Shown piece by piece: positions 7,848 through 40,240 of a stretch of DNA of 64,000 nt. Within the stretch, counting starts at the first letter, position 1. Every line of letters starts with the position of its first letter. A model generated the notes under the pieces. That model was given only the letters and a program-made list of their open reading frames with translations, ran no database searches and was not told the origin of the DNA. The position numbers were made by a program, and so were the translations under genes. Source of the DNA: Pedobacter arcticus A12 (GTDB taxonomy: Bacteria > Bacteroidota > Bacteroidia > Sphingobacteriales > Sphingobacteriaceae); assembly GCF_000302595.1 (NCBI RefSeq), contig NZ_JH947128.1, positions 248,001 through 312,000 on the forward strand. The letters run 5' to 3'.

Positions 7848-7881
7848 TTTAAAAGTTTTAAGCCTCATGATCTTTAAATTT

Positions 7882-11276: not shown

Positions 11277-11303
11277 GTATTGTAATTATATATTTGTGGT
11301 AAT

Positions 11304-11352
11304 TAAAATCAAAAAGCTGTTATCGTAATTGTAATAACTACGATAACAGCTT
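11304..11352 (-). terminator. intrinsic terminator/attenuator between susD and nanA
   Basis: On the minus strand a perfect 14-bp stem (arms 11339-11352 and 11314-11327) with an 11-base loop is followed at once by a U-rich run. It sits in the 84-base gap between the susD stop and the nanA start. Because the downstream catabolic genes have no other clear promoter, it is best read as a partial terminator or RNA-stabilising hairpin giving more susCD than enzyme mRNA. Confidence 0.75.
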
Positions 11353-11360
11353 GTAGCTCA

Positions 11361-12899: not shown

Positions 12900-12917
12900 A
12901 ATCTTGAGTATAATTGG

Positions 12918-17242: not shown

Positions 17243-19477
17243 TTATTTTATTTCAACGATATCCTTTGTACCTTTCACAATCAACTTTAATCTTCCTTTA
17301 GTTGTTAAACCAGTTCCAGAAATTTCATTTCCTGATGCTTTTTGAGCAATGAAAGATAGTTTCAAGCCATCAATTGTTGTTAATTTTCCTCCAATCCCAC
17401 CATTTACAACTACAGATTCTACTACATTAGCGGCTATCGACCCTTTACTTCCCGCAATGATAAAATAAGCTTGCGCTGTAGCTCCAGCAATCTTTTGACT
17501 AACTACTCCCGTCGGTAACGGTAGATTTTTCTGACTAGTGACATCAAAAATCCAACCTCTTCGGAATGGTTCATTTTGAGCACTTATTACAGCTGTACCT
17601 AAATTTACACCACCTTTAGCGAAAGGCAAGATATGGAGATCGGAATTCTGACCCTTCACAATCAAAGAGCTACCTACTTTCTGAACTTGTTTTTGGCTTT
17701 GAAATAAAGCTTCATACAAATGGCTATTGCTGTCTTTTGGTTCTATCCAATCTAATATCAGCCATATCCCTGGCTTGATAAATAAGATATCTCTTTGGTG
17801 CGATATTTCCAATAGAGGTTCTGGGTTTTGTATGTGCAGATACTTATAGTCCGCATATCCATTATTGTAAACTGCACTTAAAAAGTCATACTTATCATTA
17901 CTGACCCACAAAGCATCATTAGGCTTTTTATTTTCATATAAATGTCTGTTTCCATATCGATATTGACTTAGCCCATCGGGGCTAAGCGTATTGTGGGCTA
18001 CTGATGAAAGGTAATACTTTCGCCAAATATCTTTCGAGTTGTAGGTGTAAAAGCCCGGATCTACAAGGAAAAGTTCACCATTTGCAAACAGCTCAAAGCT
18101 CAGTTTATCCTCATGCTGATGCGCCAGACCATAGGGTCCCGCCTTTATCGCCATGTAGTTATCTTCTTTATTCCATCCGGAGCGCATTATATAATAACCT
18201 GCCCAGTCGAAAGACACAGAGGTATAATCAGGTTTTACGCCCTTAGCCCTATCGGTTCCAAACCACTGAAGTATATTCTGGTCACCTGTCAGAGTAGCGA
18301 TGCTGTTTACCTGTCTACGTATTGTTTGTTTATTATCTTGCGTCTGCACCATTTCGTTAAATGCAGGTATTGTACCGTCGGGTCTAGAAAAATCGACAAG
18401 AAATTTTGCCATCGCCTTCAATTTTTCCGTAAATTCAGGTAGTGGTTTTGTACCAGATTTCTCCGAAACAGTCATAAACTTTGCAAAAGTGGCCATTACT
18501 CCTTGATGGTATCTCGGACAGAGCTCTTTCTCAACCCCATCTGGATAAACCACATAATTCATTTGATCCAAACCTCTCTTTAAAGCCCAGTTTGCCCACT
18601 CCTTCGTTTTTTTAAATTCCGGTAGCGATACTGAAACCTTTTGAAGCACTTCAGCATCAGCAACACCCATATTGTGATAGGTTAGATAGGGATACTTCTC
18701 CATCCGCAAAAGATGATTATAGATGCCCTGCATGATAACTACAAAGTCTTCGCTTTTCAAATTTGGTGAATCAATTATGGAAAAAAGAGAATAAACGGTA
18801 GTGCTGATTCTAGATGAAACAGACAACTTGCTATACATCAAACGGTCAAACTCGGATGGTATAATATTATCTTCGTTTTTCTCTTTAAGTGGTACCGGAA
18901 ATTTTTCAATAAAATCACGCATCAAATAAACAAGTTCTATTGCAAAGCGTTCGTCTGTGGTAGAAGCGTATGCACCCGCTAAAATTGGCAAGCCTCTAAA
19001 CCGAACTGTATTTACCACCCATTCGGGATTTAGCGGAACACCATTTTTCCCAGTTGGATTGTATAGCCAATCGAAATCTTCGTTAAAAGTGTGTTTAACA
19101 CCTTGAAAAAAGTATGTTCTTTGGAGCAAATTTTCAGAAAGCTCTCTTGCATCCTTACTTTGTGGACGATTAGAAATATTAAAAATATCTGTAGCTAAAG
19201 TTTTATGCTTTTTATAATACTTTAGCAATTCAACACCAGCTTGTTTATAGTTTTTTGTATCAACTGCCTTTTTCACATGCCTAAGATCGGATATCGTATA
19301 ATCGATACTGTTGTAAAAATCTTCAAGGGAGGTAGAAAAAATTGGATAATTATATACAGGCTTTGCTTCAGAAGTATGTATTTTTATTGCTGTACGCCCA
19401 GTCACCTGGGTTAACGTTAAGCATGAAACAGCAATTGCCATTAGCAGGATAAATCCTAGTTTTGTTGATTTAGTCAT
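17243..19477 (-). CDS. heparinase II/III-family polysaccharide lyase
   Basis: A 744-residue secreted lyase with a signal peptide (1-27), an alpha/alpha toroid N-terminal domain (about 50-400) and the heparinase II/III beta-sandwich (about 415-700). Catalytic-type residues seen are N269 in YHNMG, Y323/H324 in PRYHQG and H453 in AHQHEDK. It would cleave a uronic-acid linkage by beta-elimination. The set resembles PL12/PL15/PL17/PL21 lyases. I cannot place it in one family, so heparosan, hyaluronan or alginate-like substrates all remain open. It is the last gene of PUL 2 and lies 77 bases after the SGNH gene. Confidence 0.85.
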   Translation of the reverse strand: MTKSTKLGFILLMAIAVSCLTLTQVTGRTAIKIHTSEAKPVYNYPIFSTSLEDFYNSIDYTISDLRHVKKAVDTKNYKQAGVELLKYYKKHKTLATDIFNISNRPQSKDARELSENLLQRTYFFQGVKHTFNEDFDWLYNPTGKNGVPLNPEWVVNTVRFRGLPILAGAYASTTDERFAIELVYLMRDFIEKFPVPLKEKNEDNIIPSEFDRLMYSKLSVSSRISTTVYSLFSIIDSPNLKSEDFVVIMQGIYNHLLRMEKYPYLTYHNMGVADAEVLQKVSVSLPEFKKTKEWANWALKRGLDQMNYVVYPDGVEKELCPRYHQGVMATFAKFMTVSEKSGTKPLPEFTEKLKAMAKFLVDFSRPDGTIPAFNEMVQTQDNKQTIRRQVNSIATLTGDQNILQWFGTDRAKGVKPDYTSVSFDWAGYYIMRSGWNKEDNYMAIKAGPYGLAHQHEDKLSFELFANGELFLVDPGFYTYNSKDIWRKYYLSSVAHNTLSPDGLSQYRYGNRHLYENKKPNDALWVSNDKYDFLSAVYNNGYADYKYLHIQNPEPLLEISHQRDILFIKPGIWLILDWIEPKDSNSHLYEALFQSQKQVQKVGSSLIVKGQNSDLHILPFAKGGVNLGTAVISAQNEPFRRGWIFDVTSQKNLPLPTGVVSQKIAGATAQAYFIIAGSKGSIAANVVESVVVNGGIGGKLTTIDGLKLSFIAQKASGNEISGTGLTTKGRLKLIVKGTKDIVEIK

Positions 19478-19554: not shown

Positions 19555-20667
19555 TTATTTAAGCAACGGTTTAAGTAGCTTCTCAAATGCATTCGCATAT
19601 TTTAACATCCCCATATCTGTGGGATGGGTTCCATCAACGGAATCATTCATATCAAACCCTATATCAGCATAGGTTAAATAATACACATTTTTAACTCCTT
19701 TTGATTTCAACTCTTTATAACTGTCCTGTAATTCTTTGTTCATAGCGGCTAATCCCCTCGCTCTTGCAGAAGTAAACCTACCTTCCGTATAGTGCGGCTG
19801 TTCAACCACTACAATTGGCGTATTGGGATGCTTTGCCCTAAGCGTGATTACAGCGTCTGTATGTTTTGATTTAATATTTTTAATATCAGCACCCATATTT
19901 GCCACACAGTCTATTATGAATATTTTTGCATCCTTTTCTGCCATTAAATCAATAATTTCCTTCTCTAACTTTCCGTTACCAGAAAATCCTAAGTTTACAA
20001 CGGGCGTGTGCAGTTTACGAGAAAGTATATTAGTCCACGCCATGCCTGGCCTTGATGCACAGCCGCCTTGTGTAATGGAAGTACCGTAAGTGATAATAGG
20101 CTTCTCGTCCGTGACTGGGATAAATTTGAATCCACTTCCTTCAGGCACACCAATTTCCAACCATTTTACCCCATTATACAATGGTAGAAACAAGTGAAAT
20201 TTCCTGCCTGATTTATATTGATCTTTATCTAAATCAAGACTTGCATAGCTATAAGTTATCGTATCTTTAAAGTCAGCCTTTCCATTTGCCCAAGCCCAAG
20301 ACCCGTCTTTATTTTCGGCGAACAAATCTACCCCAGACACACCCGTAGCTGGGAAATGGTTCATTGCATATTTTTTTTTAGTGGTCACGTACCGGATAAT
20401 TATTTGTTCGGCAGTTGTATTGAAAACTAATTCCAACCCTGCGGCAGTGCGAGATAAGTTCCAAACTTCTGGTCTCACCGTATTTTCCATCTTGCTTGGC
20501 AACCTATCATAAAATGATTTTATTTCTTTGTCGCTCCAACCTTGATTATGCACTGTTGGATATTTCTCGGTAGCAGGATTATGCCACTTTATCTCCGTTT
20601 TTTGGGCTATAGCATTACTAACTAAAAATAGCATTGCTAATAGCAATTGCAGGCTGAACTTATTCAT
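19555..20667 (-). CDS. SGNH/GDSL hydrolase with GxDLY domain
   Basis: A 370-residue secreted esterase: signal peptide (1-21), a jelly-roll GxDLY domain (about 25-180, with GVSGVDLFA near 109) and an SGNH domain (about 188-370) whose nucleophile is S197 in YGTSITQGG. The late DGTHP motif supplies Asp and His. Family members de-acylate cell-surface or plant carbohydrates. Beside two lyases it probably removes O-acetyl groups that block lyase access. A possible weak LacI operator (20775-20792) lies about 110 bases upstream. Confidence 0.82.
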   Translation of the reverse strand: MNKFSLQLLLAMLFLVSNAIAQKTEIKWHNPATEKYPTVHNQGWSDKEIKSFYDRLPSKMENTVRPEVWNLSRTAAGLELVFNTTAEQIIIRYVTTKKKYAMNHFPATGVSGVDLFAENKDGSWAWANGKADFKDTITYSYASLDLDKDQYKSGRKFHLFLPLYNGVKWLEIGVPEGSGFKFIPVTDEKPIITYGTSITQGGCASRPGMAWTNILSRKLHTPVVNLGFSGNGKLEKEIIDLMAEKDAKIFIIDCVANMGADIKNIKSKHTDAVITLRAKHPNTPIVVVEQPHYTEGRFTSARARGLAAMNKELQDSYKELKSKGVKNVYYLTYADIGFDMNDSVDGTHPTDMGMLKYANAFEKLLKPLLK

Positions 20668-20824: not shown

Positions 20825-22303
20825 TTAGTCCTCAGCAATAAATTTCACAGTTTGAGAGCGGTTTCCAACAACTAAATGGACTAAGTAAACTCCAGACTTA
20901 AGATTAAGATTTCCTAAATCAACTTTTGTATAGCCTGCGCCCAATTCCGCGGGTATGGTACGCAAAATATCGCCTAAAATATTCGCTACTTTTACGCTTC
21001 CACGGCCGGCTGTGGCTGAATGAATGGAGGCTACCAGATTATTTGTCTCTTTATAAACAACAAATCCGTCTTTTACCAAGTCGGTAGTTACGGCCCGCAC
21101 TTCAGATTCAGTAGAAGTACCATTAAAATCAACTTGTCTTAATTGATAATAGTTAGTGCCAGAAGCAGGCTTATAGTCTGTATAGGAGTAATTTTTAACA
21201 TCGTTAGAATTACCCGCCCCAGAAACCTGTTCAATTGTTTGGAATTCTTTCCCTGTAGACGAACGCAAGATATCGAAATGAGCGTTGTTTTTCTCTGATG
21301 CCGTAGTCCAGTTCAGTTTCACTGCATCGTTCTGTTTTTTTGCTGTGAAGGAACTTAAAACAATCGGTAAGGTAGTTACCGCATAATCGAAGCGGATATT
21401 GCTAAAAGTTACAGTGGATGTTGGCGTAGTAGCATCCCCACTTAAATGACTGAATCCAAAAGCATTGATTACTTTGTTTACTGGAACTTCCGTTTTACCG
21501 CCTATGGCTGCTGGAAAATTTACAGCTCCTGCAACATCTAGTTGCACTCCGTCAATCCAAACATGGTATGCCTTGGAAGGGATAGTTATTGTATTGGTTC
21601 CATAAGTATACTCTTGTTCTGCAACAGAATTATTCATAAAAACCTCCAGTTCGTGATTTCTACCTAAAACAAATGCATCGCTTTTAACATCCGGGTATGT
21701 TGTACCTGTTGTACCACTACCTGTTGGATTGTTTCTTCCTATCAGTTTGATACCTGTTGCACCATACAATATTCCCAATGCAGCAAAAATATCTGCATTT
21801 GTACCACTAGACAAATTACTATTACTTGTAAAGACCCCCGATGAAGTAAACCCATCGGTATTTCCCAGCATTAAACGTATCAAACCCTTTGTTCCAGAAT
21901 CACCAAACTTTAAGGTTGTCGAAAATCTGGATATTTCTGTGGCACCTGCAGCATCAATAAGAGATAATTTATTGGGCCCACCATTTGCAATCAACACTTC
22001 TAGACCAGTTGGATTTGGAAAAGGGACAAGTTTATAACCGCCATTGAATTCCGCAGCACCAGAGTACCGCAAGTACGCTGTACCCGAAGATGGCGCTGGC
22101 ATCCAACCCAGTGACGCTGTTGTTACGGTTTCTTTATATCCATCCGTAGGTATTGGCTCCAAAGAAGCAGGTTGTCCTGGTGCCCTATTTCCACTAAAGT
22201 CGTATACATAATTAGTTCCAGCGTTTTCCCAATTTACAAACTGAGAATGTGCTTGTATAGCGCCCATCGTGAACGCTACCGCAAGTAGTAGTGTTTTTTT
22301 CAT
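20825..22303 (-). CDS. secreted protein with an unnamed 'YD' module, Fn3-like domain and T9SS sorting domain
   Basis: I do not recognise a named family. The 492-residue protein has a signal peptide (1-20), a module of about 280 residues starting with the YDFSG motif (34-38), an Fn3-like domain (about 310-400, with LNWTTASEKNN) and a type-A C-terminal sorting domain (about 415-492). The module shares motifs such as LEVFMNN (219-225) and HVWIDG with the 541-residue protein at 26787-28412 and with the C-terminal part of the PL8 lyase encoded between them. The absence of obvious catalytic motifs and the lyase context suggest a carbohydrate-binding, surface-attached protein. That function is inference. 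Confidence 0.75.
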   Translation of the reverse strand: MKKTLLLAVAFTMGAIQAHSQFVNWENAGTNYVYDFSGNRAPGQPASLEPIPTDGYKETVTTASLGWMPAPSSGTAYLRYSGAAEFNGGYKLVPFPNPTGLEVLIANGGPNKLSLIDAAGATEISRFSTTLKFGDSGTKGLIRLMLGNTDGFTSSGVFTSNSNLSSGTNADIFAALGILYGATGIKLIGRNNPTGSGTTGTTYPDVKSDAFVLGRNHELEVFMNNSVAEQEYTYGTNTITIPSKAYHVWIDGVQLDVAGAVNFPAAIGGKTEVPVNKVINAFGFSHLSGDATTPTSTVTFSNIRFDYAVTTLPIVLSSFTAKKQNDAVKLNWTTASEKNNAHFDILRSSTGKEFQTIEQVSGAGNSNDVKNYSYTDYKPASGTNYYQLRQVDFNGTSTESEVRAVTTDLVKDGFVVYKETNNLVASIHSATAGRGSVKVANILGDILRTIPAELGAGYTKVDLGNLNLKSGVYLVHLVVGNRSQTVKFIAED

Positions 22304-22338
22304 AATTATTGTTTTTAGTTATCGTATGATTATTAAAA

Positions 22339-25300
22339 CTATTTTTTGATAAATGTTCCCTTTTCGTAAAGAGAAGTCCCATTTACCGTAGTTATATAAA
22401 CCGCTGGTGCTAAATAGCTAGCATCTAAAGTCAAAATATTATAACCTGTTTTCACAAACGTAGACCTACTCTGGACTACTTTACCATCTATGCTTACTAT
22501 TCTTATTTCTGCTTGGGTATCAAATTTCGAATAGAACCTCAACTCCATTTTATCACTCACGGGGTTAGGCATTATACTGAAGGGTTCACTTTTGAGTGGT
22601 AACTTTATTGCTACCACATCGCTTTCATAACTCTGTGTTCCATCCTTATCCACTGCAATCATTTTATAATAAATATGAGGTTGATTGGTAGAGAACTGCG
22701 CATCTGTAAAAGTGTATTGAACCTTTTTTTCAGAATCACCTGTAGCATTAACACTCCCTATAAGGTTATAATTTTGTCCGTCGGTACTGCTATAAATTTT
22801 AAATAAGTCAACGTTCTTTTCAAATACTGTAGACCATTTTAGTAAAACATCTCCTTGTGAGTAATCACCGGTAAAAGAGGTGATGGTAAGTGGAAGTAGT
22901 GTAGGTTTTACATACTGCAACTGAATGTTACTTAAGGTAAGTTGGGCAGCATTACTTGTAGGCAAAGTACTAGCATTACCTGTAAAAAGGAAAGCACTCA
23001 ACTCCTTTTTACGTTCCAATTCGCTTGCTGCAAATACACCTAATTTAATCCCATCCACCCAAAAATCAAGCATTCCGGCATCTACTGTGTAGGTTTTTGA
23101 ACCGCGTACATAGTCTTGTGAAGCATCGTGGTTGTTAGCGTAAACTTCTACATCGTATGTTCCTCCTTTAACAAAAGGTGCATTATTTAAAATTGGATAG
23201 GAAATACTCGACCCTGATCTTTGCCGATAGGAGAAAACTAGTTCATTGGCTGTACCAATTGTCCATTTAAGTGCTGTAAATACCTCTGCTCTTTCTGTAT
23301 TTGGTAAACCGGAGCCATCATTGAATCTATTAACATTATCACTACTCTCCAAGTGATTTCCCATCGCCATTACCCAAGTACCGTTGGTGGGCTCGGTATT
23401 AAAGGTCATCCTAAAAAACAAAGCTGTCACTGCCGATGCATCTGTTCCATAAACAGAAAACTTACCAATGGTTCCTGCGGAGGAAGCGGTTATTTTGAGC
23501 GCCGCTGTTTCTCCAGTTCCTTCCAAGTCAAAACTAGGGGCACCGCTTGCACTACCTACACGGGCCATTCCCTTAGTAGGATAAGGCAGAAAGCCTGGAT
23601 TAGCACTGGTAGATATGGATACTCCTGTTGACCAATTGCTACCTTGGTTTCCTGTACCTGCACCCAAATCATAGTTTAAACTATCACTTTCTAAAACCCA
23701 TTTGCCAGGTTCGTGTAAAACAGCTTCACGTACCAATTTGATGGTGTTTGAGAAGCCATGCTCTAAAACAAATGTAGCAGTCAGCTCATCTCCATTTTTG
23801 GTAATACTGGCGTTATTGGTATTCTCATCAATATCCCATCCACCCTTTAAGGTTATACTTACAGTGCTAGGTCTCGCTAGCCAGTAGTAATCCCAAGACG
23901 TTTTATTCTCTGTATTTAAATCGGGTATATTGATTGTTACAATAAGAGAGTCTATTAATTTATTGGAGCTTAATGCTTCTCTAGCACCCACTAATGCTTT
24001 ATTGGAAATACTTTTTATGTAGCCGATATTTACGTCCGTTTTTGGGTCGAAAAACACGTAAGAAGTTAGCTTTTTAGGAAGATACTTCACAACGTGTGCA
24101 GTATTACTTTGTTCCAGTATTTCATAAACAACACCAGAGTCAATTTGCGAAATCACTGCTTGCATAGCAGAAGGAGTAACATCAGGTACTACTACATAGG
24201 CATATTTGCCATCCGACGGTTTTGTCCCGTGACTAATCCATGCTTTGCTTGCATTTGCTGTCGCTGTTACCGTTTCATCATCTGATGATTCTAAAGGAGT
24301 AGATTGCGACCCTCTGAATACGCTGATGTCTCCATTTCCTTTTGGGATATAAAAACCTGTTTTTTGAGCAGTTAATAACCAAGCACTTGCTGATGCTGTA
24401 GAAATAGTGGTGTTAAGTGCCCCAGAAACTGGCGTAGTGGAGTTAACGTAAATTGCGGGATTGGAGCCAGTTGTTACTGCTTGAAAAAGGTTGGTAGCTA
24501 CGTCTCCAAGTGCATTGCTGGTAGTAATGTTAGTTCCCAAACACAGCATGATATCGTCAAATGCGAAAACCGACTTCTTAAACGTTAAATCACTTGATGT
24601 ATAATAGGTCTTAGCATCTTGCGAGAAATCTAAAGCAAAAATACCTTGATCTCCTAAAGACAACCCTCCAGCGAAACTGTTTTTCTGGAATTCAGTTGAA
24701 GTTGGCTTTAAAGCAAGTAAACCTGTATAAGTAGGAAAATGTACGGTAGTAGTACCGGGCATCATATTCCAGTCCCATCCATTACCATACAGAATATAAC
24801 CGCTGGAACTAAGGTTCCCTCCGTATAATATCTCTAAAGAACCATAACTCTGGTATCGTCCCCAGCGGTTATCTCCAGCATTGATCTCTGAACCGAATAA
24901 TTTATCGGTTGACCCTCGCATCACAGCTACATAGTTTCCTTTTCTTTTAACTGCCATGGGACCATAAGCATAGGGATAGAAACCATCATAATTTACCGCA
25001 GGAGCCGAATAAGCATTTGTGCCAGTTAAATTGTTGTAAAATGAAGCTAAAGCGGGATCAATTGGTTCCCCCATAATGTCCCCACCTATTTCTATCAGTG
25101 ATTTTAATTGGGTCAACTTCACCGATACAGAACTTTGGAAAGGGGTTCTGCCAGACTCTGCATGAGCAAACAAGGTACCTTTCGAAGTGCCGATAAATAG
25201 GTTTTTCATGGCGAAAACCATATTATCATAAGCTTGTTTGCTAACCTTAAAACTAGTGCCTTTTAAATTGTACACAATATTGGTCCATTCGCCCCAAGCA

Positions 25301-26634
25301 TACATATAGCTTACATGATGAGATTGGTGGTGAAAACCCATTGCATCTGGCTTTATGCCGTCTCTAGCCCCATAACTTGATTCTGTATTCCGTTCTAAGA
25401 ATCTTTTAACCGCTTTTAAATCTCTCACTGCAAGGGCATCATCTTGTTCCAAAACTGCTAACTCTGGTAAAAATTTACCTTTCAGGTATAAAAAATCCAC
25501 ATTATAACCAGGGATGTAAGTATTCTCATGTACAATACCGAACATATTTGACCATTTCAGCATTTTCATCACGTCGCTTCTCACATCCACCGGATACACA
25601 GGTAACGCATCAATAAAACCCAGAGGTAATGCTAATGGATTGGCATACGAGTTTGTTCTGAGCACACTTCTTCCGCCTTCAGCAAAACCTTGATCTAGGA
25701 GATACTTTGTAAAATCGATTAGCTTCACTTTAGCGTCTTCATCCGTATTTTGCCGATACGCTCTTGCCAAATAGCCACAATAGTTTGCTAGCCTAACAAG
25801 AGTGTCTGCATCATAGATATCGGATATTCCTCTGCCCGTAATTGTATTATCTGGATTGTAACGGATGTTGGAAAAGTTAACGTAAGCTTTGGCTTCGGCC
25901 AGATCAGTAGAAGAAACAGTAGCAAGGGTGCGAGCTAGGCGACTTCTTACAACATTCAAATCAGTTAATTCTTGGGCGGAAGGTAACGTTACCGGAATAT
26001 TAGGTACGTTTAAAAAACTTGTTAGGGCATTACCATTCTGACCATTAACTGCCTGCTGTCTAAAAAAGGGATAATCGATAGCCATGTGAGGACCTGGAAT
26101 TCGAACAGCATCATCGCCTATAAACTTTACCGAGTCTAAATAAATTGTTTTAACAGCAGTCGGATGCACTGGCTTATACGTAACGACACATTTCTTAAGT
26201 AAAAAGCCAGCAACTGTACCATTGTTTACTGCGTAGTCATAGTAATAACTACGGTGGTAATCTCTCCATCCTTTAAAGTTTAGCAGCATCTTTCCTTGCC
26301 GACGTTGAACATTATTTTGATCAAAAAATGTAAAATACAAGGTGTCGTTAGAAACTTCTTTGCTGTAAACGAAAATCTGAGCAGAACCAGTACTGGTGCT
26401 TGCAATTTCCGTTAAAGGTATATTCAAATCAATTGCCCTTAATTCATTGTTGGCAGCAGCAACCCATTTTAACGCCTTAGCACCATCTTTTAGATGCTCA
26501 TCACTGAGTGCTAATGGCGTGGCGCCACTGGTACTCCAATTGGAAGGTATGGATGAATTGAAATCAACATAACGCTGCTGTGCTGCAGCAAATCCAGTAA
26601 TAAGGCACAAGGCAACAGATAAGTATAGTTTCAT
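22339..26634 (-). CDS. PL8-family lyase, chondroitinase ABC-like, with T9SS sorting domain
   Basis: A 1431-residue secreted polysaccharide lyase: signal peptide (1-19), jelly-roll N-terminal domain like that of chondroitin ABC lyase (about 20-180), alpha/alpha toroid (about 200-560) and anti-parallel beta-sandwich domains (to about 970). Aligning DGIKPD (425-430) with the same block of chondroitinase ABC puts H436 and Y443 at the catalytic His and Tyr, and R496 in SGRTPF near the catalytic Arg. A C-terminal extension adds the YD module (about 977-1242), an Fn3-like domain and a type-A sorting domain (about 1350-1431). It cleaves hexosaminyl-uronic acid bonds of chondroitin, hyaluronan or a bacterial analogue. 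With no sulfatase nearby, an unsulfated substrate is likelier. Confidence 0.85.
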   Translation of the reverse strand: MKLYLSVALCLITGFAAAQQRYVDFNSSIPSNWSTSGATPLALSDEHLKDGAKALKWVAAANNELRAIDLNIPLTEIASTSTGSAQIFVYSKEVSNDTLYFTFFDQNNVQRRQGKMLLNFKGWRDYHRSYYYDYAVNNGTVAGFLLKKCVVTYKPVHPTAVKTIYLDSVKFIGDDAVRIPGPHMAIDYPFFRQQAVNGQNGNALTSFLNVPNIPVTLPSAQELTDLNVVRSRLARTLATVSSTDLAEAKAYVNFSNIRYNPDNTITGRGISDIYDADTLVRLANYCGYLARAYRQNTDEDAKVKLIDFTKYLLDQGFAEGGRSVLRTNSYANPLALPLGFIDALPVYPVDVRSDVMKMLKWSNMFGIVHENTYIPGYNVDFLYLKGKFLPELAVLEQDDALAVRDLKAVKRFLERNTESSYGARDGIKPDAMGFHHQSHHVSYMYAWGEWTNIVYNLKGTSFKVSKQAYDNMVFAMKNLFIGTSKGTLFAHAESGRTPFQSSVSVKLTQLKSLIEIGGDIMGEPIDPALASFYNNLTGTNAYSAPAVNYDGFYPYAYGPMAVKRKGNYVAVMRGSTDKLFGSEINAGDNRWGRYQSYGSLEILYGGNLSSSGYILYGNGWDWNMMPGTTTVHFPTYTGLLALKPTSTEFQKNSFAGGLSLGDQGIFALDFSQDAKTYYTSSDLTFKKSVFAFDDIMLCLGTNITTSNALGDVATNLFQAVTTGSNPAIYVNSTTPVSGALNTTISTASASAWLLTAQKTGFYIPKGNGDISVFRGSQSTPLESSDDETVTATANASKAWISHGTKPSDGKYAYVVVPDVTPSAMQAVISQIDSGVVYEILEQSNTAHVVKYLPKKLTSYVFFDPKTDVNIGYIKSISNKALVGAREALSSNKLIDSLIVTINIPDLNTENKTSWDYYWLARPSTVSITLKGGWDIDENTNNASITKNGDELTATFVLEHGFSNTIKLVREAVLHEPGKWVLESDSLNYDLGAGTGNQGSNWSTGVSISTSANPGFLPYPTKGMARVGSASGAPSFDLEGTGETAALKITASSAGTIGKFSVYGTDASAVTALFFRMTFNTEPTNGTWVMAMGNHLESSDNVNRFNDGSGLPNTERAEVFTALKWTIGTANELVFSYRQRSGSSISYPILNNAPFVKGGTYDVEVYANNHDASQDYVRGSKTYTVDAGMLDFWVDGIKLGVFAASELERKKELSAFLFTGNASTLPTSNAAQLTLSNIQLQYVKPTLLPLTITSFTGDYSQGDVLLKWSTVFEKNVDLFKIYSSTDGQNYNLIGSVNATGDSEKKVQYTFTDAQFSTNQPHIYYKMIAVDKDGTQSYESDVVAIKLPLKSEPFSIMPNPVSDKMELRFYSKFDTQAEIRIVSIDGKVVQSRSTFVKTGYNILTLDASYLAPAVYITTVNGTSLYEKGTFIKK

Positions 26635-26671
26635 TGCGATTCTTTAAATTTTGCCCATAGGCATGTCAAGA

Positions 26672-26690
26672 TGGTTGTATTACACAACCA
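26672..26690. promoter_or_regulatory. dyad in the PL8 gene leader
   Basis: TGGTTGT-ATTAC-ACAACCA is a perfect 7-bp inverted repeat with a 5-base centre, 37 bases before the PL8 start codon. It is unlike the LacI or GntR sites and could be the operator of another regulator or an mRNA hairpin. Confidence 0.4.
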
Positions 26691-26727
26691 GTGTAGCATC
26701 AGGTTTTTAAAACTGCGTAGGGTTAAC

Positions 26728-26757
26728 CAACAAAAGGATGTAATTTCCCTTTTGTTG
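26728..26757. terminator. hairpin between the 541-aa protein gene and the PL8 gene
   Basis: Ten-bp perfect arms (26728-26737 and 26748-26757) with a 10-base loop lie 30 bases after the stop codon of the upstream gene. The minus-strand RNA has no U-run after the stem, so it may be an mRNA-end or processing hairpin rather than a strict intrinsic terminator. Confidence 0.4.
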
Positions 26758-26786
26758 ATTTTTAAATCGGATTGATTTACTTTAAT

Positions 26787-28412
26787 TTATTTAACAAATT
26801 TTACTCGCTGTTTTTCTCCATTACCTTCTACTGAAAATATATAAACACCTGGAGAAAGCGTAGTTGTATTTAATGTAAACTGGTTTTTACCGCCAACAAC
26901 TTGAATATTTTGGCTCAACAGTTTTTTGCCGCCCATATCTATGACAGAAACAGCAACATTTGCAGGTTTATCTGAATAAACTGAAACATTCAATCCAGAC
27001 TCTGTACTTGTAACAGTGAGTTGTTCGGCATTAAATGAACTATTAACTGCAATCACCTCAGACGAGGAATATTTACCGTTATAATCTACCTGCTTGAGTT
27101 GATAGTAATTTATCCCCGAGATAGGGCTATAATCTTTTGTACTATAATAGTTGATTTCAGAGGAATTTCCATGTCCAGTAATCCGTTTTATTTCTTCGAA
27201 AGAAACACCATCGCTAGAACGCAATACTTCAAAATGCGAATTATCCTTTTCAGATACCGTAGTCCATTTCAAATTCACTGCATTCGCATCATACTTTCCG
27301 GTAAACGAAGTTAAGGTTACTGGAAGTGTTGCGTTAGTAGTTGTTACGTAATCAGCTTGAAGGTCTGCTAACTCTATGGAACCATAACTTAACTCTGTTA
27401 GATTAGCCGCCGTTCCGTTTGTATGTACCGCAAATGTATTAATTGCTTTCCCAGTACTAAGGGATGATTTTCCAGCGACTGCTATATCATATTCTCCAAT
27501 TTTTACCCCATTAGCCCACAAATGAACAGCTTGAGAATTTACAGCGTAAATATCTTCATCAACAACATAATATTGTTTAAGTGCAGAATTATTGCAATAC
27601 AGTTCTATATTAGAATCACTACCGTTTGCATTAATGGGTAATTCTGGCATTGCAACAAAACTTGCTGCTCCATTTACAAATGGATCTCCTCCTCCAGGGG
27701 TACTCACCTTCCTGTGCGAAACAACCATAGCTGTTTGTGTTTCATTTACTTGCAAACGAAAAGAAGTAAAAAGACTCTCGCTGAGAGAAATAGTTGATGT
27801 GCTGGTAATAGCATCACCGCCTCTAAACCATGCTCCTACTCCGGAAAGCCCCGTTCCGCTGTCATTATATCCCAACATCAAATCATAATAACGGCTACCC
27901 GACCCCACTCCTGGCTGAACAACGTTTCCGTCTCCATCATCATCTTTATAATGGGTCTTAAGATTGAAGGAAAATTTGGCGATGGGGCTAGCTACGGCAT
28001 CATCAATGTTTCTAATAAGCAATTTACTCAGTTGGTTAGTTGCATCGATTTTCAAAGATTTAAAAGTGGCGCCGTCTTTAATTAAAGTGTACTTTACCCT
28101 GGCGCCATTAGCTGCCGGATCTGCTTTTCCAGCTGATGCTCTTGTGTGTATATTGGTAGTACCAACCGACGCAGGAAACCATCCTGGAACTGTAGCCGTT
28201 GAAGTTGTTGTAGTTCCAGCCCCAGGCATATAAAGACTCGCTGGAACTTCAGACTTAAAAAGTATGGTTTCACTTTCATCTACAAAATCAGCATTGCGGT
28301 CTCCGGTTAAATCATAAGACCAAGATGCTTTGGTGCCGTTCCAATCTTTGTCTTGAGCATTTACCACACCAGCAACGAAACAAAAAGAAATTAGTTGTAA
28401 GAGTATTTTCAT
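26787..28412 (-). CDS. secreted 'YD'-module protein with T9SS sorting domain
   Basis: A 541-residue paralog of the protein at 20825-22303: signal peptide (1-20), opening motif WSYDLTGDR (31-39), the same module with IELYCNN and HLWANG, an Fn3-like domain (LKWTTVSEKDN) and a type-A C-terminal sorting domain ending in VKFVK. No catalytic residues are evident. Position directly upstream of the PL8 lyase gene, whose C-terminus carries the same module, suggests the three act on one polysaccharide at the cell surface. No established function is known to me. Glycan binding is inferred. Confidence 0.75.
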   Translation of the reverse strand: MKILLQLISFCFVAGVVNAQDKDWNGTKASWSYDLTGDRNADFVDESETILFKSEVPASLYMPGAGTTTTSTATVPGWFPASVGTTNIHTRASAGKADPAANGARVKYTLIKDGATFKSLKIDATNQLSKLLIRNIDDAVASPIAKFSFNLKTHYKDDDGDGNVVQPGVGSGSRYYDLMLGYNDSGTGLSGVGAWFRGGDAITSTSTISLSESLFTSFRLQVNETQTAMVVSHRKVSTPGGGDPFVNGAASFVAMPELPINANGSDSNIELYCNNSALKQYYVVDEDIYAVNSQAVHLWANGVKIGEYDIAVAGKSSLSTGKAINTFAVHTNGTAANLTELSYGSIELADLQADYVTTTNATLPVTLTSFTGKYDANAVNLKWTTVSEKDNSHFEVLRSSDGVSFEEIKRITGHGNSSEINYYSTKDYSPISGINYYQLKQVDYNGKYSSSEVIAVNSSFNAEQLTVTSTESGLNVSVYSDKPANVAVSVIDMGGKKLLSQNIQVVGGKNQFTLNTTTLSPGVYIFSVEGNGEKQRVKFVK

Positions 28413-31537: not shown

Positions 31538-33877
31538 TTACCTTCCTTGGTTAACTTGATTAAAAAATTTGATGATCTCTGTTACAGACTCCGGCGAAAG
31601 TCTGTTGATATCTTCTGGCTGATATAGTTGCAAATTATTTGATTTACCATACAAGCCATAAGCTACCTTAGACGCTGCAACGGCATTTTCAATTTGTTTG
31701 CGATCTCCGTATCTATCTAATGTTGGCGCTACAACCATCATAGGTCTAGGAGCAATACACGCTAACATTTCTTCTAAGTCAACTGGAGCATCTTTAGGCG
31801 TATCCGCAAAAAAGCCCAATCGAGGGATTAAACCATGCAAGTGAGACATTGTTCTTATGGATTCGTATTGCAAGTTAGAGCTTCTGTATGGAGAAAACCC
31901 AGACACCGAAACCAATGCCTTTACCCTGTTGTCTAAAGCTGCGGCGTATATGCCCACAGTTCCACCCAAAGTGTTTCCCAAAACAAAGATTTTGTTTTGA
32001 TCAATATTGTTGATTTTGTATAAGCCATCTAACACACCGCTTACGTCAGTCACCATTTTTCCCATTTTAGACCAAGAAGGGTTTCGTTGATAAAAATTAA
32101 CAGCTTCTTCCATTCGGCTACCGAAGCCAAATAAGTCAAACGCTACAACTGCATATCCCTGAGCTAAAAATTGCGAAAATAAAACATCGTTTGACTGACC
32201 GGCTGTGAGCTTATTGTAGCCCTTGGCATAACCAGTAGAGTGTGCATATTGATGTAAGTAAATCACTGTCGGATATTTCTTATCCTCAATTTTCCCTTTA
32301 CTATTTTTTGGATAATAAACACGAACTGGAATATGGTCTCCCATGGCTGCATAAGGGCCATAATAATGGGCAATGCCATTTTTTGGCTCTGCGGTTCCTA
32401 TTATAGACTCAATCCAATCGTATCTTGATTTAAGAGCAATATCAATAAAATCTGGCTTAACACTACCTGGCTTCTCACCTAAAAGCCAACTAACATTTGT
32501 TAAAACTTTCGATTTTTCTTTCTCAAAATCAGCGATACTCTTATAATTCGCTTTTAGGTGTATTGCTTTTTGGTTTCTCGCAACAATTGCCAAATCACTA
32601 TGATTTTTTAGCCAATCGTTATAATCATAGGTATAAAACAAGTTGTTATGCCAAGTAATGTTATTTCTGTTGAACTGCTTATCCAAAAAATCCAGGGTAA
32701 ATTCAACATCTCTGGAGGCAACCGCATGTTCTCCTCTTCTTGTATGTACCCCTATTCGGTCACCTTCGCCTAAGAATTCATATACTTTCTTTGTGGCATA
32801 ATAGTTTTGTTCGTTGGCCCATGCATTCAATCCAGCCTCTGTTACCGAGTAATGAAATAAGAGTGCCCTAGGTGCTATTAGCGATGCTAGTGAATTTTGA
32901 TCAACAGACAGTCTATCTTCGTTACCAAAGAAAAACCGTAATCTGGGATGAAACCAATGAGCATTTGCAGCAGTTACCAAATCAAGGGTTTCACTAGCAT
33001 ATTGTGGATCACCAAATCTCCAGGGTGCATCGCCACCTGTGCCTGAACTACTGGACACAACGGCAGTAATTCTTTCATCAAACGCAGCTGCCCAAAGTGA
33101 TTGCTTCCCGTTTCGCGAATGACCTGTAATTGCGATTTGGTTTTTATTAATCTCTGGACGCGTGTACAAATAATCGATAGCTCGTGACGCACCCCAAGCT
33201 CTTCTCATTAAGGTGCTGAAGTCGTAATTAGGATATATTTTTTGGTAGGCCTCTGTATCGTCTGCACCATCGCTTGCGGCATAGGTACAAACTGCGTAGC
33301 CTCGTCTTAAAGCTAAACGACCCCAGTCTTTGTGAGTAAATTGAGTCATAAATACTGGCAGGTTCTTTTTACCCTCTGGCAACCACAACTCTAAATGTAA
33401 TACTGCAGCGTGTGATGGTCCAAAACTTAGTTTTACTTTCACAATCCTAACGTTATTCGAAACAGAGTCCAAGAGTATCTCACTCTTTAGATTTTTTGGT
33501 GGATCTGGAAAAGTTCCCGAAATCCAATGCTTATATTCTTCTTTAATCCACTCTCTTTTCTTTTGCCATTGCTCTTTTGTCTTAATCGGCAATTCTTTAC
33601 CGTTTTCTTCAAACACTAATGGATCTGGGAGAAAAGGAGTAGATTTCATCTTGGCAAAATTCGGAGGAAGTTCACCACTTCTTTTAAGCCAATCTACCCA
33701 AGTGCTGTCTTGTACAGATACTCTTCTCGTGTTTTTTTGAATCCTTTGGTCAATGATTATCTTCTTTAAATCTGTTAGATATTGCTGTCTAATTTGAAGG
33801 TCATCTTGCCCGTATAACCGCTTGCCTACTACTGAAGTCAACAATAATAGAAAAATGGCAATAATATTTTTTTTCAT
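31538..33877 (-). CDS. tandem alpha/beta-hydrolase protein, CE15-like esterase plus degenerate second domain
   Basis: A 779-residue secreted protein (signal peptide 1-23). The first domain (about 85-430) looks like a CE15 glucuronoyl esterase, with GHSRNGK (nucleophile S254) and a late GEHAV histidine. The second alpha/beta-hydrolase domain (about 515-775) has the nucleophile elbow GNTLG, with T636 where Ser is expected, and no convincing catalytic His near its C-terminus, so it is probably non-catalytic. CE15 enzymes cut esters of (4-O-methyl)glucuronate, which fits a uronic-acid polysaccharide. It lies between the SusCD operon terminator and the beta-helix gene. Confidence 0.8.
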   Translation of the reverse strand: MKKNIIAIFLLLLTSVVGKRLYGQDDLQIRQQYLTDLKKIIIDQRIQKNTRRVSVQDSTWVDWLKRSGELPPNFAKMKSTPFLPDPLVFEENGKELPIKTKEQWQKKREWIKEEYKHWISGTFPDPPKNLKSEILLDSVSNNVRIVKVKLSFGPSHAAVLHLELWLPEGKKNLPVFMTQFTHKDWGRLALRRGYAVCTYAASDGADDTEAYQKIYPNYDFSTLMRRAWGASRAIDYLYTRPEINKNQIAITGHSRNGKQSLWAAAFDERITAVVSSSSGTGGDAPWRFGDPQYASETLDLVTAANAHWFHPRLRFFFGNEDRLSVDQNSLASLIAPRALLFHYSVTEAGLNAWANEQNYYATKKVYEFLGEGDRIGVHTRRGEHAVASRDVEFTLDFLDKQFNRNNITWHNNLFYTYDYNDWLKNHSDLAIVARNQKAIHLKANYKSIADFEKEKSKVLTNVSWLLGEKPGSVKPDFIDIALKSRYDWIESIIGTAEPKNGIAHYYGPYAAMGDHIPVRVYYPKNSKGKIEDKKYPTVIYLHQYAHSTGYAKGYNKLTAGQSNDVLFSQFLAQGYAVVAFDLFGFGSRMEEAVNFYQRNPSWSKMGKMVTDVSGVLDGLYKINNIDQNKIFVLGNTLGGTVGIYAAALDNRVKALVSVSGFSPYRSSNLQYESIRTMSHLHGLIPRLGFFADTPKDAPVDLEEMLACIAPRPMMVVAPTLDRYGDRKQIENAVAASKVAYGLYGKSNNLQLYQPEDINRLSPESVTEIIKFFNQVNQGR

Positions 33878-35032: not shown

Positions 35033-36943
35033 TTAGTATCCGTAATTTTGGGTTTTCAATCCTTTATTTAGCGCCATTTCATAAGTAGGAATAGGCCATA
35101 ACAAATCCTTTTGAGAAACATTTTGAAAATACTTCACGGCATTGCTTGTTAACGAAGTAGCCGCTATTCCTAAAGTTGCATCACCAAATATCAGATCATT
35201 TTTAGCTCTCTCCATATAATCCAAGTATTTACCCCATCTAACTAAATCACCTTTTCTCAAACCTTCAAAACATAACTCTCGGGTTCTTTCTTGTTCAATA
35301 TATTCTTGAAATTTTTCATAACCTCCATAAATATTTTGATCCAGCATGTAAGTAGATGTTCTTCTTTGACTTAAAACTGCCACGCCAGCCCCAGATGTAC
35401 CACCACCACCAGAAATGGTAATTGTAGGTACACTTGTATACCCTGACCCTGGCTTAAGTACTTTTATATGAGTTAGTTTAAAAGTTGTGGGATGTACAAA
35501 TGCTTGCAACTCTGCTCCACTACCGCCACCGCCACTTACTGTTACGGTTGGCGCCGCAGTATAGTTGGCTCCAGGGTTTGAGATACTTACAAATCTAATG
35601 CTTTCTGCTGCTAAATCTTTTCCATAAGCTCTTCTTCTAACCTCATTTACTGCTGCAATTGCATCAGAAGTAGGGCCACTATGAATTTGGTTTTCGGCTT
35701 CAGCAAACATCAACAATACATCAGAATAGCGCAATAAAGGAAAGTTAATTGATCCAGCATTTTTGAACTTCGGAAGAACAACCTCTAATTCTCTACGCCA
35801 TTTGCCACTCGCTCTGCCTAATTTTGTTGTGATTGGAATGGCTGTTTCAACTACCCCTGGATAGCCAGTAACATTCGCTGTCGTATAGTTAGATATGGAC
35901 CAGTCACGTCTTTCATCTTTAGAGATAACATCGTCTGGATTCTCAAAAGTATACCACGTACGAGCATTAGTTAACACATACGCATAACTGTAGATATATT
36001 TTCCATTTGGGTCATCACCACTGAACAGGATTCCATTATTACTTCCTATTCTCCCAGTTTCAGAATAACCATTGTCTGTTGTTCCATTACCGTAAAATTC
36101 CACTTCCCATATGGACTCTTTAATATCATACTGGTTTGTACAATGTTTGATAAAAACATCTTCGTAAGATGGATTTAACGCATGTTGGAACCCGTCTTTC
36201 GGATCTGGTTTCATCACTTTATAAGCCCAGTCACGAGCATCTTGATATTTGGTCACATCTTTAATTGGAAAACCTGCCCAATGTAAATACACACGAGCCA
36301 AAATACCACGCACCGCTGATTTACTAACACGTCCTCCGTATCCAACTTCCTGTGCAGTTCTTACCAAGCCCTCCGCCTCAATCATGTCTTTTTCTATTTG
36401 CTGATAAACTTGTACAGCAGGGGTACGTTCTGCGTACACCTCTAAGGCATTATCTATTGATTTAGTCATTAGTGGCACATCACCCCATAATTTCACTAAC
36501 ATAAAATGATAATAACCTCTTAGAAAAAGTGCTTCGCCTTTTACCACAGTTCTTTCTGTGCTATCCATCTCGGCTTTATTCAAATTTTCTAAAAGTAGGT
36601 TAGCCCGGTTTATCCCGTCATACCAAAACCTCCAGTTTTTTGCAACGTTTGGATCTGAGCCATAAGATAAATTGACTGCGACCCCTTCAGAAGCGGTGGC
36701 GCGGTAATACGAGTCATCTCCTTCTAATCCCATTCTTCCTTGCATCTGGTCACCATAAGTTTCAGATCTTGCTAAGCGATCATAAACCCCCGCTAAAGCT
36801 GCTTTAACTTGTTTACCATCTCGATAAAAAGTCTCTAGCGAATTTTCGGTAAGCGGTTCGTTTTCCAGAAATTTCTGACATGAAACAAATGAAATCGCAA
36901 TTAATACCGCTGTTAATACTTTTATTCCTTTTATAGCGCTCAT
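35033..36943 (-). CDS. SusD-family lipoprotein with an inserted glycine-rich repeat domain (PUL 2)
   Basis: RagB/SusD lipoprotein. The longest frame starts at 36973 and overlaps susC, but the Met at 36943 gives a normal lipoprotein leader (SFVSC), so I use it. SusD helices and the ERTRELCFEGLRKGDLVRW block are present. Between VRRRAYG and that block an extra 83 residues (459-541 of the longest frame, DNA about 35351-35599) hold two copies of a PGxxYTxxPTxTxSGGGG repeat, absent from the PUL 1 SusD. The insert lies at the start of the usual C-terminal helical part and might change ligand contact. Its function is unknown. Confidence 0.88.
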   Translation of the reverse strand: MSAIKGIKVLTAVLIAISFVSCQKFLENEPLTENSLETFYRDGKQVKAALAGVYDRLARSETYGDQMQGRMGLEGDDSYYRATASEGVAVNLSYGSDPNVAKNWRFWYDGINRANLLLENLNKAEMDSTERTVVKGEALFLRGYYHFMLVKLWGDVPLMTKSIDNALEVYAERTPAVQVYQQIEKDMIEAEGLVRTAQEVGYGGRVSKSAVRGILARVYLHWAGFPIKDVTKYQDARDWAYKVMKPDPKDGFQHALNPSYEDVFIKHCTNQYDIKESIWEVEFYGNGTTDNGYSETGRIGSNNGILFSGDDPNGKYIYSYAYVLTNARTWYTFENPDDVISKDERRDWSISNYTTANVTGYPGVVETAIPITTKLGRASGKWRRELEVVLPKFKNAGSINFPLLRYSDVLLMFAEAENQIHSGPTSDAIAAVNEVRRRAYGKDLAAESIRFVSISNPGANYTAAPTVTVSGGGGSGAELQAFVHPTTFKLTHIKVLKPGSGYTSVPTITISGGGGTSGAGVAVLSQRRTSTYMLDQNIYGGYEKFQEYIEQERTRELCFEGLRKGDLVRWGKYLDYMERAKNDLIFGDATLGIAATSLTSNAVKYFQNVSQKDLLWPIPTYEMALNKGLKTQNYGY

Positions 36944-36962
36944 AATAAATTTTATTTTTTTG

Positions 36963-39900
36963 TTAAAGAACAACTCTTAACCCTAATACAACAGTTCTAG
37001 AATGCGGATAAGCTGAAAAATCAAAACCAGGTGTAAGAACACCACTTCTTGTAGAAACTTCTGGATCATACCCAGAATAGTTGCTCCACACAGCCAAGTT
37101 CTGTGCTGAGGCTGTTAATCCCAACGAAGAAATTTTGTATTTTGAAAGAAACTTCTTAGTCACATAATACCCTAACTCAATTGTTTTCAATCTTAAGAAC
37201 GAACCATCTTCGATATATTTTGTAGAGTAACGAGCCGTTGGACCTTGTCCGTTAGTCCGATAGTTCTCATTGGTTTGATTTTCTGGCGACCATCTATTTG
37301 CATAACTCTGGAACTGGTTTAGGTTGTTGGCTGTTGTACCTTCAAACATAATTTTATTGGCGTTTACGATATCATTTCCATACGTCCATTGTAACAGCAC
37401 ACCAAGTTTAAACCCTTTATAGGCAAAACTATTGTATAAACCACCACTATGAATTGGGGTTCCTCTGCCTATAATTGTCCTATCCTTATCATCAACAAAA
37501 CCGTCTCCGTTTAAATCACGGTATTTGATATCACCAGGTTCAACAGCTTTGCCATCTGGGTTGTTAAACGGAACGCCTGGCTTTAATGTAGTGTACACTC
37601 CAGATCCATCATCTTCAAAATCACTGTATTGGTAGTTACCCTCCCAAACATAACCAAACATTTGACCGGCAGGCTGACCTACTTCTGCTATGTACAATGG
37701 TGTATTGATGTAAGCGTTGTTCCACGAAACATTTTGCAACCAGATGTTTTCTCCGTCTGCAAGACTTAATATTTTGTTGTTATTGAAAGCAATGTTAAAG
37801 CTCGACTCCCATTTAAACTTTTTATTATCAAAGTTTACAGTATTTAATGTTACCTCTACACCGTTATTACGCAACTCTCCAATATTTTTATAAACTCGAT
37901 CATAACCTGTATGGTAAGGCATATTTGAGTTCAATAATAGATCATGCGTGGTACGGGTATAATAATCAACAACCAACTCTAGCTTATTTTTAAATAATGC
38001 TAAATCGTAACCAATATCAAACTGCTCTGTAGTTTCCCACTTTAAAAAACGATTACCCAGTTTTGAATTATACGCTCCTAAAGTTGGCGAATTGTTTCCC
38101 CAAGAGTAAGACGCCTGACTTTGAGAAAATTCTAATAAATCTATATAAGCATAATCTGAAACTCGGTTGTTTCCCGTAAAGCCATAGCTAATTCTCAATT
38201 TAGCATCATAGATAGCTTTAATATCCTTCATAAAACTTTCTTTAGACATTCTCCACGCGAACGCTCCAGAAGGGAAATAGCCCCATTTGTGACCCGGAGC
38301 AAACCTTGAAGAACCATCGGCTCGCATGGTTGCTGTTAAAAAGTATTTAGACTTATAATTATAATTGGCTCTTCCGAAGAAAGATTGTAAAGCATACTCA
38401 GATGCACCACCATCAATGGTATATGCCTCACCAGCGCCTAAACCATCTATTCCCTTGGTTTCATCAGGCGAATTTATCCCGATAAAGCCTCCTGATGTAG
38501 TTTTGGAATGTTGATTTGAAAAACCCAATAAACCGTCCACATTATGTTTTTTATTGAAGGTATTCTTATAGGTCAATGTATTCTCATTAGACCAAGTAAA
38601 TCTTTCAGAATAAGATTTACCGCCCCATTGCCCTCTCACGTTTCCAGGATATCTTTCATTCCCCCTACGTGTTTCAGAGTTATAGAAATACTCTCTATCA
38701 GAGTTAAGATTATTGATAGACCCTGTTGTTTTAAAGGTCCACTGTTTATTTAGCTTATAATCTACGTAAGCATTGGTTACCAAATTGCCCCACGATCTTT
38801 TGTTATATTCGTTTTTTATGTCCAGTACCGGATTTACACGATAATCGTTGTTAAGATCAATATCCTCATCAACGATTTCGTCTAACAAGTCATCCTCGGT
38901 ATAATCAAATCTCCCAGTCACTGGTCGGTATCCTAACACCGCGTATAACAAATAAGAAGATACAGCAGAACTGCTACCACCGGCAACTGCCGCCTGGCTA
39001 CCATAATTACTCCGTTGAGAATAATTTAAGTTGATCCCCGTTGAAATCTTTTTATTTACTTCTTGGCTTAAAGACACTCTTCCTTGGTACCTATCCTGAC
39101 CAGTATTGATCAAAATAGCGTCGTTATTATAAAGGGATCCCGAAATAGAATATCTCGTACCGCCGGCGCCACCTCTTATGGCTAAATTGTTGATATAACT
39201 TTTGCCTGTTCTTAATACTTGGTCTTGCCAGTCTACGCCTTTTTTTCCAATATAATCGTCTAATGTTCTACCATCTGTTAAATAAGGCGCTCCTCGTCCT
39301 TTTTCAATCTGGTATTTTACAAACTCGTAGGGTTGCATTACCTCTAAGCGTTCTACAATTTCTTGTGTTCCGAAAGACCCATTATAAGAAACTACGGGTT
39401 GCCCAACTTTTCCTTTCTTGGTTTCAACAACTACAACTCCGTTAGAAGCTCTAGCACCATATATCGCAATAGCGGACGCATCCTTCAAAATATTGATAGA
39501 TTCAATATCATTTGTGTTCAGCGTGGAAGGATCAAAATTCTCATTAGCAAATCCATCTACTACATACAACGGAGAAACATCTTGTGTTAAAGATCCAGCA
39601 CCACGTATTACCACGCTAATGCCTTCATCCCCTGGTTGACCGCCCGATGCACTCACCTGTACCCCCGCTATTCTACCAGCTAATGCCTGCTCAAAAGACA
39701 TTACAGGGGCTTGTTCCAGTTGTTCAACACGAACTATACCTACAGAACCCGTTAAATCTTCTTTTTTTACTGTTCCGTAACCTACTACCACTACCTCCTG
39801 TAAAGACCTTGCACTAGATTCTAGATTTACAGTAAGTATACCTTGACTACCAACCTTTACTTCCTGGCTTTCATAACCGATAGAGGTAAACACTAAAACA

Positions 39901-40136: not shown

Positions 40137-40240
40137 AATTATTGGTTTAGGTTTTTTTGTAATTAAAGTCAAACATGCATAGCAACACATGCTTAACAAT
40201 TGACTAAAAAAAATTTATTATAAAGGTTTAACTCGTTTGG

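Follow-up and report, generated by a model that had tools for sequence, protein, structure and literature searches.

What is the module that three consecutive secreted proteins of Pedobacter arcticus A12 have in common, and what does it contribute next to the polysaccharide lyase to which one of its copies is fused? The question arises from 64,000 nucleotides of the genome of this bacterium (assembly GCF_000302595.1, contig NZ_JH947128.1, positions 248,001 to 312,000, hereafter called the window; coordinates count from its first nucleotide). The three genes encode two free-standing module proteins, of 492 and 541 residues, and between them a 1431-residue polysaccharide lyase of family 8 (PL8) that carries the module behind its catalytic part. 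The sharing of the module by these proteins is real and far beyond chance. The module is likely to be an unclassified carbohydrate-binding module (CBM) with a concanavalin-A-like lectin fold, which would hold N-acetylhexosamine (HexNAc) polysaccharides near the enzymes that cut them.

One module in three consecutive proteins

The homology of the copies is seen in two-sequence BLAST comparisons (E 4e-17 for the 492-residue and PL8 copies, 2e-11 for the 492- and 541-residue copies and 1e-10 for the PL8 and 541-residue copies) and in the Smith-Waterman scores of the same pairs (204, 174 and 126, respectively), which none of 1000 shuffles reaches (best shuffled scores 76, 83 and 72). This bears out a preliminary description of this DNA, made from the sequence alone, which had proposed one module common to the three proteins. 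The range that it gave for the PL8 protein, about residues 977-1242, agrees with the range aligned by the iterated profile itself, and its size of about 270 residues is right for the 492-residue and PL8 copies, whereas the 541-residue protein has a longer copy, of about 336 residues, with insertions. The motifs are found in their places, being YDF or YDL at the opening, followed by GWMP, GFLP or GWFP, by LEVFMNN, VEVYANN or IELYCNN and by HVWIDG, DFWVDG or HLWANG. The proposed closing S/L-N/E-I strand is not seen in the 541-residue protein, in which the copy ends with ADLQ and not with S-N-I, and the final pattern LP.T[SL]SFT, which reads LPIVLSSFT in the 492-residue protein, is part of the linker and tail that follow. 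The whole 492-residue protein has 41 matches in the genome (itself included), 27 of which start only at residue 235 or later, and the LP..LTSFT stretch is therefore regarded as a generic linker and tail region and not as module.

The three genes are arranged head to tail, all on the minus strand, and are composed of the following parts (T9SS, type IX secretion system).

26787..28412, minus strand: 541-residue free-standing module protein, with signal peptide (by eye), module, linker and T9SS tail
27342..28349, minus strand: its module copy, residues 22-357 (iterated profile, domain E 4.6e-43; model with the same strand order)
26790..27341, minus strand: its linker domain and T9SS sorting tail (TIGR04183, 30.6 bits, above cut-off; beta domains in the model)
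22339-26634, minus strand: gene of the 1431-residue PL8 protein, between the 541- and 492-residue protein genes
23767..26577, minus strand: PL8 part (chondroitinase ABC type), residues 20-956 (Lyase_N, Lyase_catalyt, Lyase_8)
22906..23706, minus strand: module copy fused to PL8, residues 977-1243 (domain E 7.4e-79; model pLDDT 91.1, pTM 0.90)
22342..22905, minus strand: linker domain and T9SS sorting tail of the PL8 protein (Por_Secre_tail, above cut-off)
20825..22303, minus strand: 492-residue free-standing module protein
21377..22237, minus strand: its module copy, residues 23-309 (domain E 1.8e-65)
20828..21376, minus strand: its linker domain and T9SS sorting tail (TIGR04183, 28.1 bits, above cut-off)

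Signal peptides are present on all three proteins, as read by eye, and the sorting tail scores above the NCBIfam cut-off in each of them and above the Pfam cut-off in the PL8 protein alone. Residues 276-956 of the PL8 protein align with chondroitin ABC lyase (Protein Data Bank [PDB] entries 7eip and 1hn0), the module being C-terminal to the enzyme, and in this alignment the catalytic stretches look intact. The stretches that hold the catalytic His, Tyr, Arg and Glu of the ABC lyase are conserved.

In the three window proteins no Pfam or NCBIfam family scores at or above its cut-off over the module, and these searches place the three copies together in no known CBM or LamG family. When 30 copies are scanned singly at E 0.1, three Pfam and three NCBIfam families appear, each in one to three copies and none of them a LamG family; GBS_Bsp-like (E 0.026, three copies), PLipase_C_C (E 0.0086, one copy) and BCCP (E 0.00044, one copy) were set aside as isolated matches. 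A profile of 30 copies, within the limit of its sensitivity, finds three chance-level matches among PDB sequences (E 0.19-0.44), none of which is CBM70. The CBM-like domain of GH181 (GH, glycoside hydrolase family) is not matched in this profile search, though the similarity in fold is high, and no published description of the module was recognised in the open-access literature searched; a paper on a cellulose-binding surface protein (PMC12016534) was set aside. The sequence family of the module is unclassified, its predicted fold is a well-known one and the role proposed for it is probable.

Predicted fold and conserved residues

The AlphaFold model of the PL8 copy (277 residues, pLDDT 91.1, pTM 0.90) predicts a discrete fold of its own, a concanavalin-A-like jelly roll. 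The 541-residue protein was modelled over 525 residues (pLDDT 77.6, pTM 0.62). The order of the strands in the module is the same in the two models, and BT_1020 and AmGH181 top both lists of structural matches, so that folds differing between copies, a possibility raised in the preliminary description, are not observed. The models cover the PL8 and 541-residue copies; the 492-residue copy is, of these two, closer in sequence to the PL8 copy.

The best solved match of the PL8 copy is to residues 413-616 of BT_1020 (PDB entry 5mqr; Z 18.9, root mean square deviation 3.0 Å over 184 aligned residues), followed by residues 385-599 of AmGH181 (Z 16.0-16.4, about 2.5 below BT_1020), and lectins, galectin-like proteins, alginate lyases and GH16 enzymes come about 2 Z units below AmGH181. 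Z is at least 8 in 758 of the 987 aligned chains, the best 50 of which include lectins, CBM-like domains, GH16 enzymes and alginate lyases; PL7 and PL18 are present in the Foldseek list. The earlier view that no named domain has this pattern holds for the sequence family (Pfam, NCBIfam) and fails for the predicted fold, which is that of the lectin/LamG-like (concanavalin-A) superfold. A search of viral structures turned up phage proteins with this superfold and led no further, and a likeness to the metal site of legume lectins (E...N...H) was dropped, the spacing being different by eye.

Among the 79 distinct copies described below one residue, Asn1167 in the PL8 protein, is invariant (79/79), and Lys1058, Glu1163, Asn1168, Tyr1175 and Trp1192 are nearly so. 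These are the most likely candidates for residues of either a ligand site or the structural core. Profile position 214 is His in 25 of the 28 copies from lyase loci, Asn in 9 of the 13 from GH20/GH18 loci and Asp in 11 of the 13 distant copies, in a grouping to which 54 of the 79 rows are assigned, the other 25 being outside any group. The window copies have His, Asp and His at this position, and the Asp is in the PL8 copy, which therefore departs from the lyase-locus pattern. It is possible that position 214 could help set specificity. The mean net charge of the same groups (+0.5 for lyase loci, +2.2 for GH20/GH18 loci and -7.6 for distant copies) is too confounded to be used.

Relatives of the module and their gene context

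An iterated search of the window and 46 fetched stretches finds 63 copies, which lie in the window itself and in 39 of those stretches, and a named collection has 27 further copies in 18 loci, several of its genomes being the same as among the stretches; the 90 copies collected are reduced to the 79 distinct ones when duplicates are removed. The named collection covers Pedobacter, Desertivirga, Pelobium, Nubsella, two Ignavibacteria, Chitinophagaceae, Paludibacter, other Bacteroidetes, an uncultured bacterium and Cerasicoccus, a member of the Verrucomicrobiota. The distribution is patchy: the module is found in at least 7 of 395 genomes across the phylum (a lower bound, five candidates having been scored per genome) and in 13 of 120 relatives, the genome of the window being included in both counts.

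The distinct copies comprise 33 of the tail class (short proteins with a long C-terminal part), 16 module-only proteins, 21 copies near the C-terminus of other proteins and nine near the N-terminus of long ones, classes that are set by position and length only and by which the copy of locus L152 (354 residues, no enzyme) is counted as a fusion. The fusion partners include PL8, Hepar_II_III-like, alginate-lyase-like (just below the family cut-off), beta-helix and GH18 proteins and, once, Endonuclease I. One heparinase-like protein has a module at each end, its Hepar_II_III_C match being below the cut-off of that family, and DUF4955 and DUF4957 proteins also carry the module, the former with pectate-lyase-like or beta-helix matches. 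The PL8, Hepar_II_III-like, alginate-lyase-like and GH18 fusions have it as a contiguous module inside a carbohydrate-active enzyme, as a CBM in the sense of CAZy. Many copies are free-standing, often adjoining SusC/SusD; a loose lipobox match is found in 3 of 87 proteins (duplicates included), none of them convincing.

In the tree, a single clade (support 0.999) unites the modules of locus L021, a locus of the window's own genome: the two of a heparinase-like lyase, that of a PL8 lyase and those of two free-standing proteins. The two free-standing window copies come out as sisters with weak support (0.72), and the PL8 copy is placed elsewhere. The idea that modules follow locus and not architecture is rejected as a general rule and retained for single loci only, L021 being one: architecture changes 24 times on the tree, compared with a shuffled mean of 39.0, and locus 63 times, compared with 70.9, both labels being clustered, and for the 46 copies from multi-module loci the nearest leaf is of the same locus in 12 and of the same architecture in 31. 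In locus L107 (6161-14058) five consecutive genes carry the module, which in one of them is fused to a DUF4957-type protein; the five are in one clade with one copy of L102.

Gene names in the loci of relatives are transferred by similarity from 32 reference proteins, and in L138 by Pfam. One recurring order is sulfatase, PL8, PL8, free-standing module protein, SusC and SusD (L124, L125 and L141; L144 with two module genes), and free-standing copies lie between PL8 and SusC/SusD in L113/L144, L124, L125, L132, L134 and L141, though not in every locus. The second locus type, found in L112/L136, L115/L138, L137, L140 and L142, has SusC, SusD, a CBM96/fasciclin protein, a beta-helix protein, a module-only protein, a module-plus-tail protein, GH20 and GH20. 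In L022 (9499-13362) and L139 (8459-11407), next to genes for chondroitinase B, PL8 and sulfatase, the module is carried by DUF4955 proteins whose N-terminal part gives a pectate-lyase-like match; these proteins are possibly a further glycosaminoglycan enzyme. In L021 (10194-19214) two polysaccharide pyruvyl transferase genes are interleaved with heparinase-like genes, one of which bears a module.

The proximity of such genes was assessed in 12 module genomes (that of the window and 11 relatives), in which 54 copies form 34 clusters, with expectations calculated from genome coverage and with rounded genome sizes for the relatives. PL8 is found within 15 kb of 15 of the 34 clusters (0.83 expected), GH20 of nine (1.24 expected), six of which are also PL8 clusters, and chondroitinase B-type lyases of seven (0.59 expected). 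The GH43 control is found near none (1.48 expected, an underestimate from a partial list). The rows used are 53 of 56 for the module (G450, G000:C1:185536 and G002:C1:888651, with stops, were dropped) and one from another search, 45 of 63 for PL8 (the other 18 being in genomes outside the 12), 56 of 58 for GH20, 32 of 48 for chondroitinase B (16 dropped as short or weak) and 85 of 158 for GH43, with none within 15 kb among the other matches listed. Two of the dropped chondroitinase B rows (G011 C66 and G017 C31) are within 15 kb of a module cluster; if counted, they give nine chondroitinase B clusters of the 34, and therefore 10 clusters without any of the three partners. In the 120 genomes, PL8 is present in 12 of the 13 with the module and in 9 of the 107 without (Fisher P 3e-10), and the link with Hepar_II_III is weaker (10/13 and 30/107, P 0.0009).

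Several observations weigh against a module that holds HexNAc polysaccharides. Within 15 kb, 12 of the 34 clusters have neither PL8 nor GH20 nor chondroitinase B, and the PL8 figure includes the fused copies. The co-occurrence test is confounded by relatedness and genome size: in the genus, the module and PL8 occur together in ten larger genomes and are both absent from eight smaller ones. In L128 the partner fused to the module is Endonuclease I. Most of the distant copies (Ignavibacteria, other Bacteroidota, Cerasicoccus) stand at the start of long secreted proteins, and near them only one sulfatase-like gene (L152) is recognised by the limited transfer from 32 references; the ancestral ligand may differ, given these surroundings. 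RiPL8-N, a domain on another PL8 lyase, is reported not to bind hyaluronan (PMC13027841), and by the domain search reported there it is a different domain (PMC13027841).

At the window locus, the module genes have the following neighbours.

17243..19477, minus strand: heparinase II/III-type lyase (Hepar_II_III_N and _C)
19555..20667, minus strand: GDSL/SGNH esterase with GxDLY domain (domain matches)
31538..33877, minus strand: protein with a glucuronyl-esterase-type domain (GCE_fung and alpha/beta hydrolase families)
35033..40199, minus strand: pair of SusD-like and SusC-like proteins in this locus

Between the module genes and the glucuronyl-esterase-type gene, a 788-residue protein (29024-31390) has no Pfam match at E 1 and starts with a Tat-like RRKML stretch (by eye). 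Directly downstream, 4221-16217 is a sialic-acid use island, with a SASA/GDSL esterase, a BNR-repeat (sialidase-type) protein, an MFS transporter, a NanM-like epimerase, a NanA-like lyase (DHDPS family), SusD and SusC.

HexNAc is the element common to the substrates of PL8, GH20 and GH18. The substrate-binding role suggested in the preliminary description is supported by the predicted fold and the gene context; glycan binding, the ligand and the binding face are what we infer from here on. At the window locus the ligands would be hyaluronan, chondroitin or related uronic-acid glycans. Behind the PL8 lyase the module would raise the local concentration of substrate, and a free-standing module with a T9SS tail would act beside SusC/SusD as a SusE/SusF-like surface glycan catcher. 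A precedent for a T9SS-exported locus enzyme is described for a Flavobacterium chitin locus (PMC5127042).

Alternative roles and likeness to known systems

In 12 distinct loci (L021, L103, L107, L112, L113, L115, L117, L121, L122, L137, L140 and L142) a module-only gene lies directly upstream of a module-plus-tail gene, in the same order in all 12. The module-only proteins of these loci have a signal peptide (by eye) and no sorting tail, and may therefore stay periplasmic. It is conceivable, though rather doubtful, that one module family is present on both sides of the outer membrane as a relay, in which HexNAc polysaccharide would pass from surface capture via SusCD to a periplasmic binder, with module-bearing lyases. 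Module-only genes also occur without a tailed partner (L030, L106 and L119), and the window has two tailed free-standing copies and no module-only gene.

Free-standing and fused copies lie side by side in one locus, with up to five copies, and same-locus copies are close relatives in L021, L107 and L103, as matched partners would be. These features would also be seen if the module were a protein-protein docking or scaffold module, copies of which bind each other or SusCD and gather the lyases of the locus in a surface assembly. This is improbable when considering the predicted fold, which is lectin-like and whose nearest structures include a CBM-like domain, and the many fetched stretches in which the module is the only copy; a complementary partner domain was not noticed either, though no search was aimed at one. 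The module also directly precedes the sorting tail in the window and in many relatives, as would a non-binding spacer or T9SS passenger that aids only folding, export or display, and an accessory domain of another PL8 lyase is reported not to bind hyaluronan (PMC13027841). Such a passive role has little probability, however, as tail-less module-only proteins recur (16 of the 79 distinct copies), the link to particular enzyme families is strong and one residue is invariant in all 79. It is very improbable that the module is itself an enzyme, like PL7, PL14, PL18, PL36 and GH16, which have this fold. At Z of about 13 the matches include alginate lyases and GH16 enzymes, PL7 and PL18 are in the Foldseek list, and the nearly invariant Lys, Glu, Tyr and Asn could in principle serve catalysis, but even in the column richest in His this residue is present in just 40 of 63 copies, neither the PL7 motifs (RSEL, QIH, YFKAG) nor the GH16 motif ExDxxE are seen in the conserved columns, and the window module follows a PL8 lyase with seemingly intact catalytic stretches.

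The reading as a carbohydrate-binding module, if true, would make this a new family of modules, linked with PL8 lyases and GH20 loci, which is exported by the T9SS and not lipid-anchored, and which is found in Pedobacter-group bacteria and beyond. It gives a testable prediction for the capture of amino-sugar polysaccharides by Bacteroidota, and if binding holds, the module could provide small soluble probes for hyaluronan or chondroitin. To our knowledge, few glycosaminoglycan-binding modules are known.

Among known systems, the SusE/SusF class of surface glycan-binding proteins is similar in gene context, the module gene lying likewise beside SusC/SusD and lyases in several relatives; that class is lipid-anchored, whereas the module proteins carry a T9SS tail and no convincing lipobox. 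L-type lectins (ERGIC-53, legume lectins) and the sialic-acid-binding domain of Vibrio cholerae sialidase (CBM40) have the same superfold at Z 13-14, with 5-10% identity. The closest folds are those of AmGH181/Amuc_1547 (PDB entries 8axs and 8hls) and residues 413-616 of BT_1020 (5mqr), with Z 16-18.9 for the PL8 copy and 13.7-15.8 for the 541-residue protein. Like the module, these parts are attached to glycan enzymes; they differ from it in having only about 13-15% identity, in belonging to other enzymes and organisms and in not being reached by the PDB profile search. AmGH181 is reported to bind mucin, and the region matched by the module contains a domain described as CBM-like and a small inserted one (PMC10067855). 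The hyaluronan-specific CBM70 of the Streptococcus pneumoniae hyaluronate lyase, which has a solved structure, is likewise a beta-sandwich on a PL8 lyase (PMC4175358), in a paper that calls its work the first characterisation of a glycosaminoglycan-binding module (PMC4175358). CBM70 is described there as N-terminal, 161 residues long and closest to CBM4 (PMC4175358), whereas the module of P. arcticus is C-terminal to the PL8 part, has about 270 residues and is also free-standing; by analogy with CBM70, glycosaminoglycan binding would be the role expected of it.

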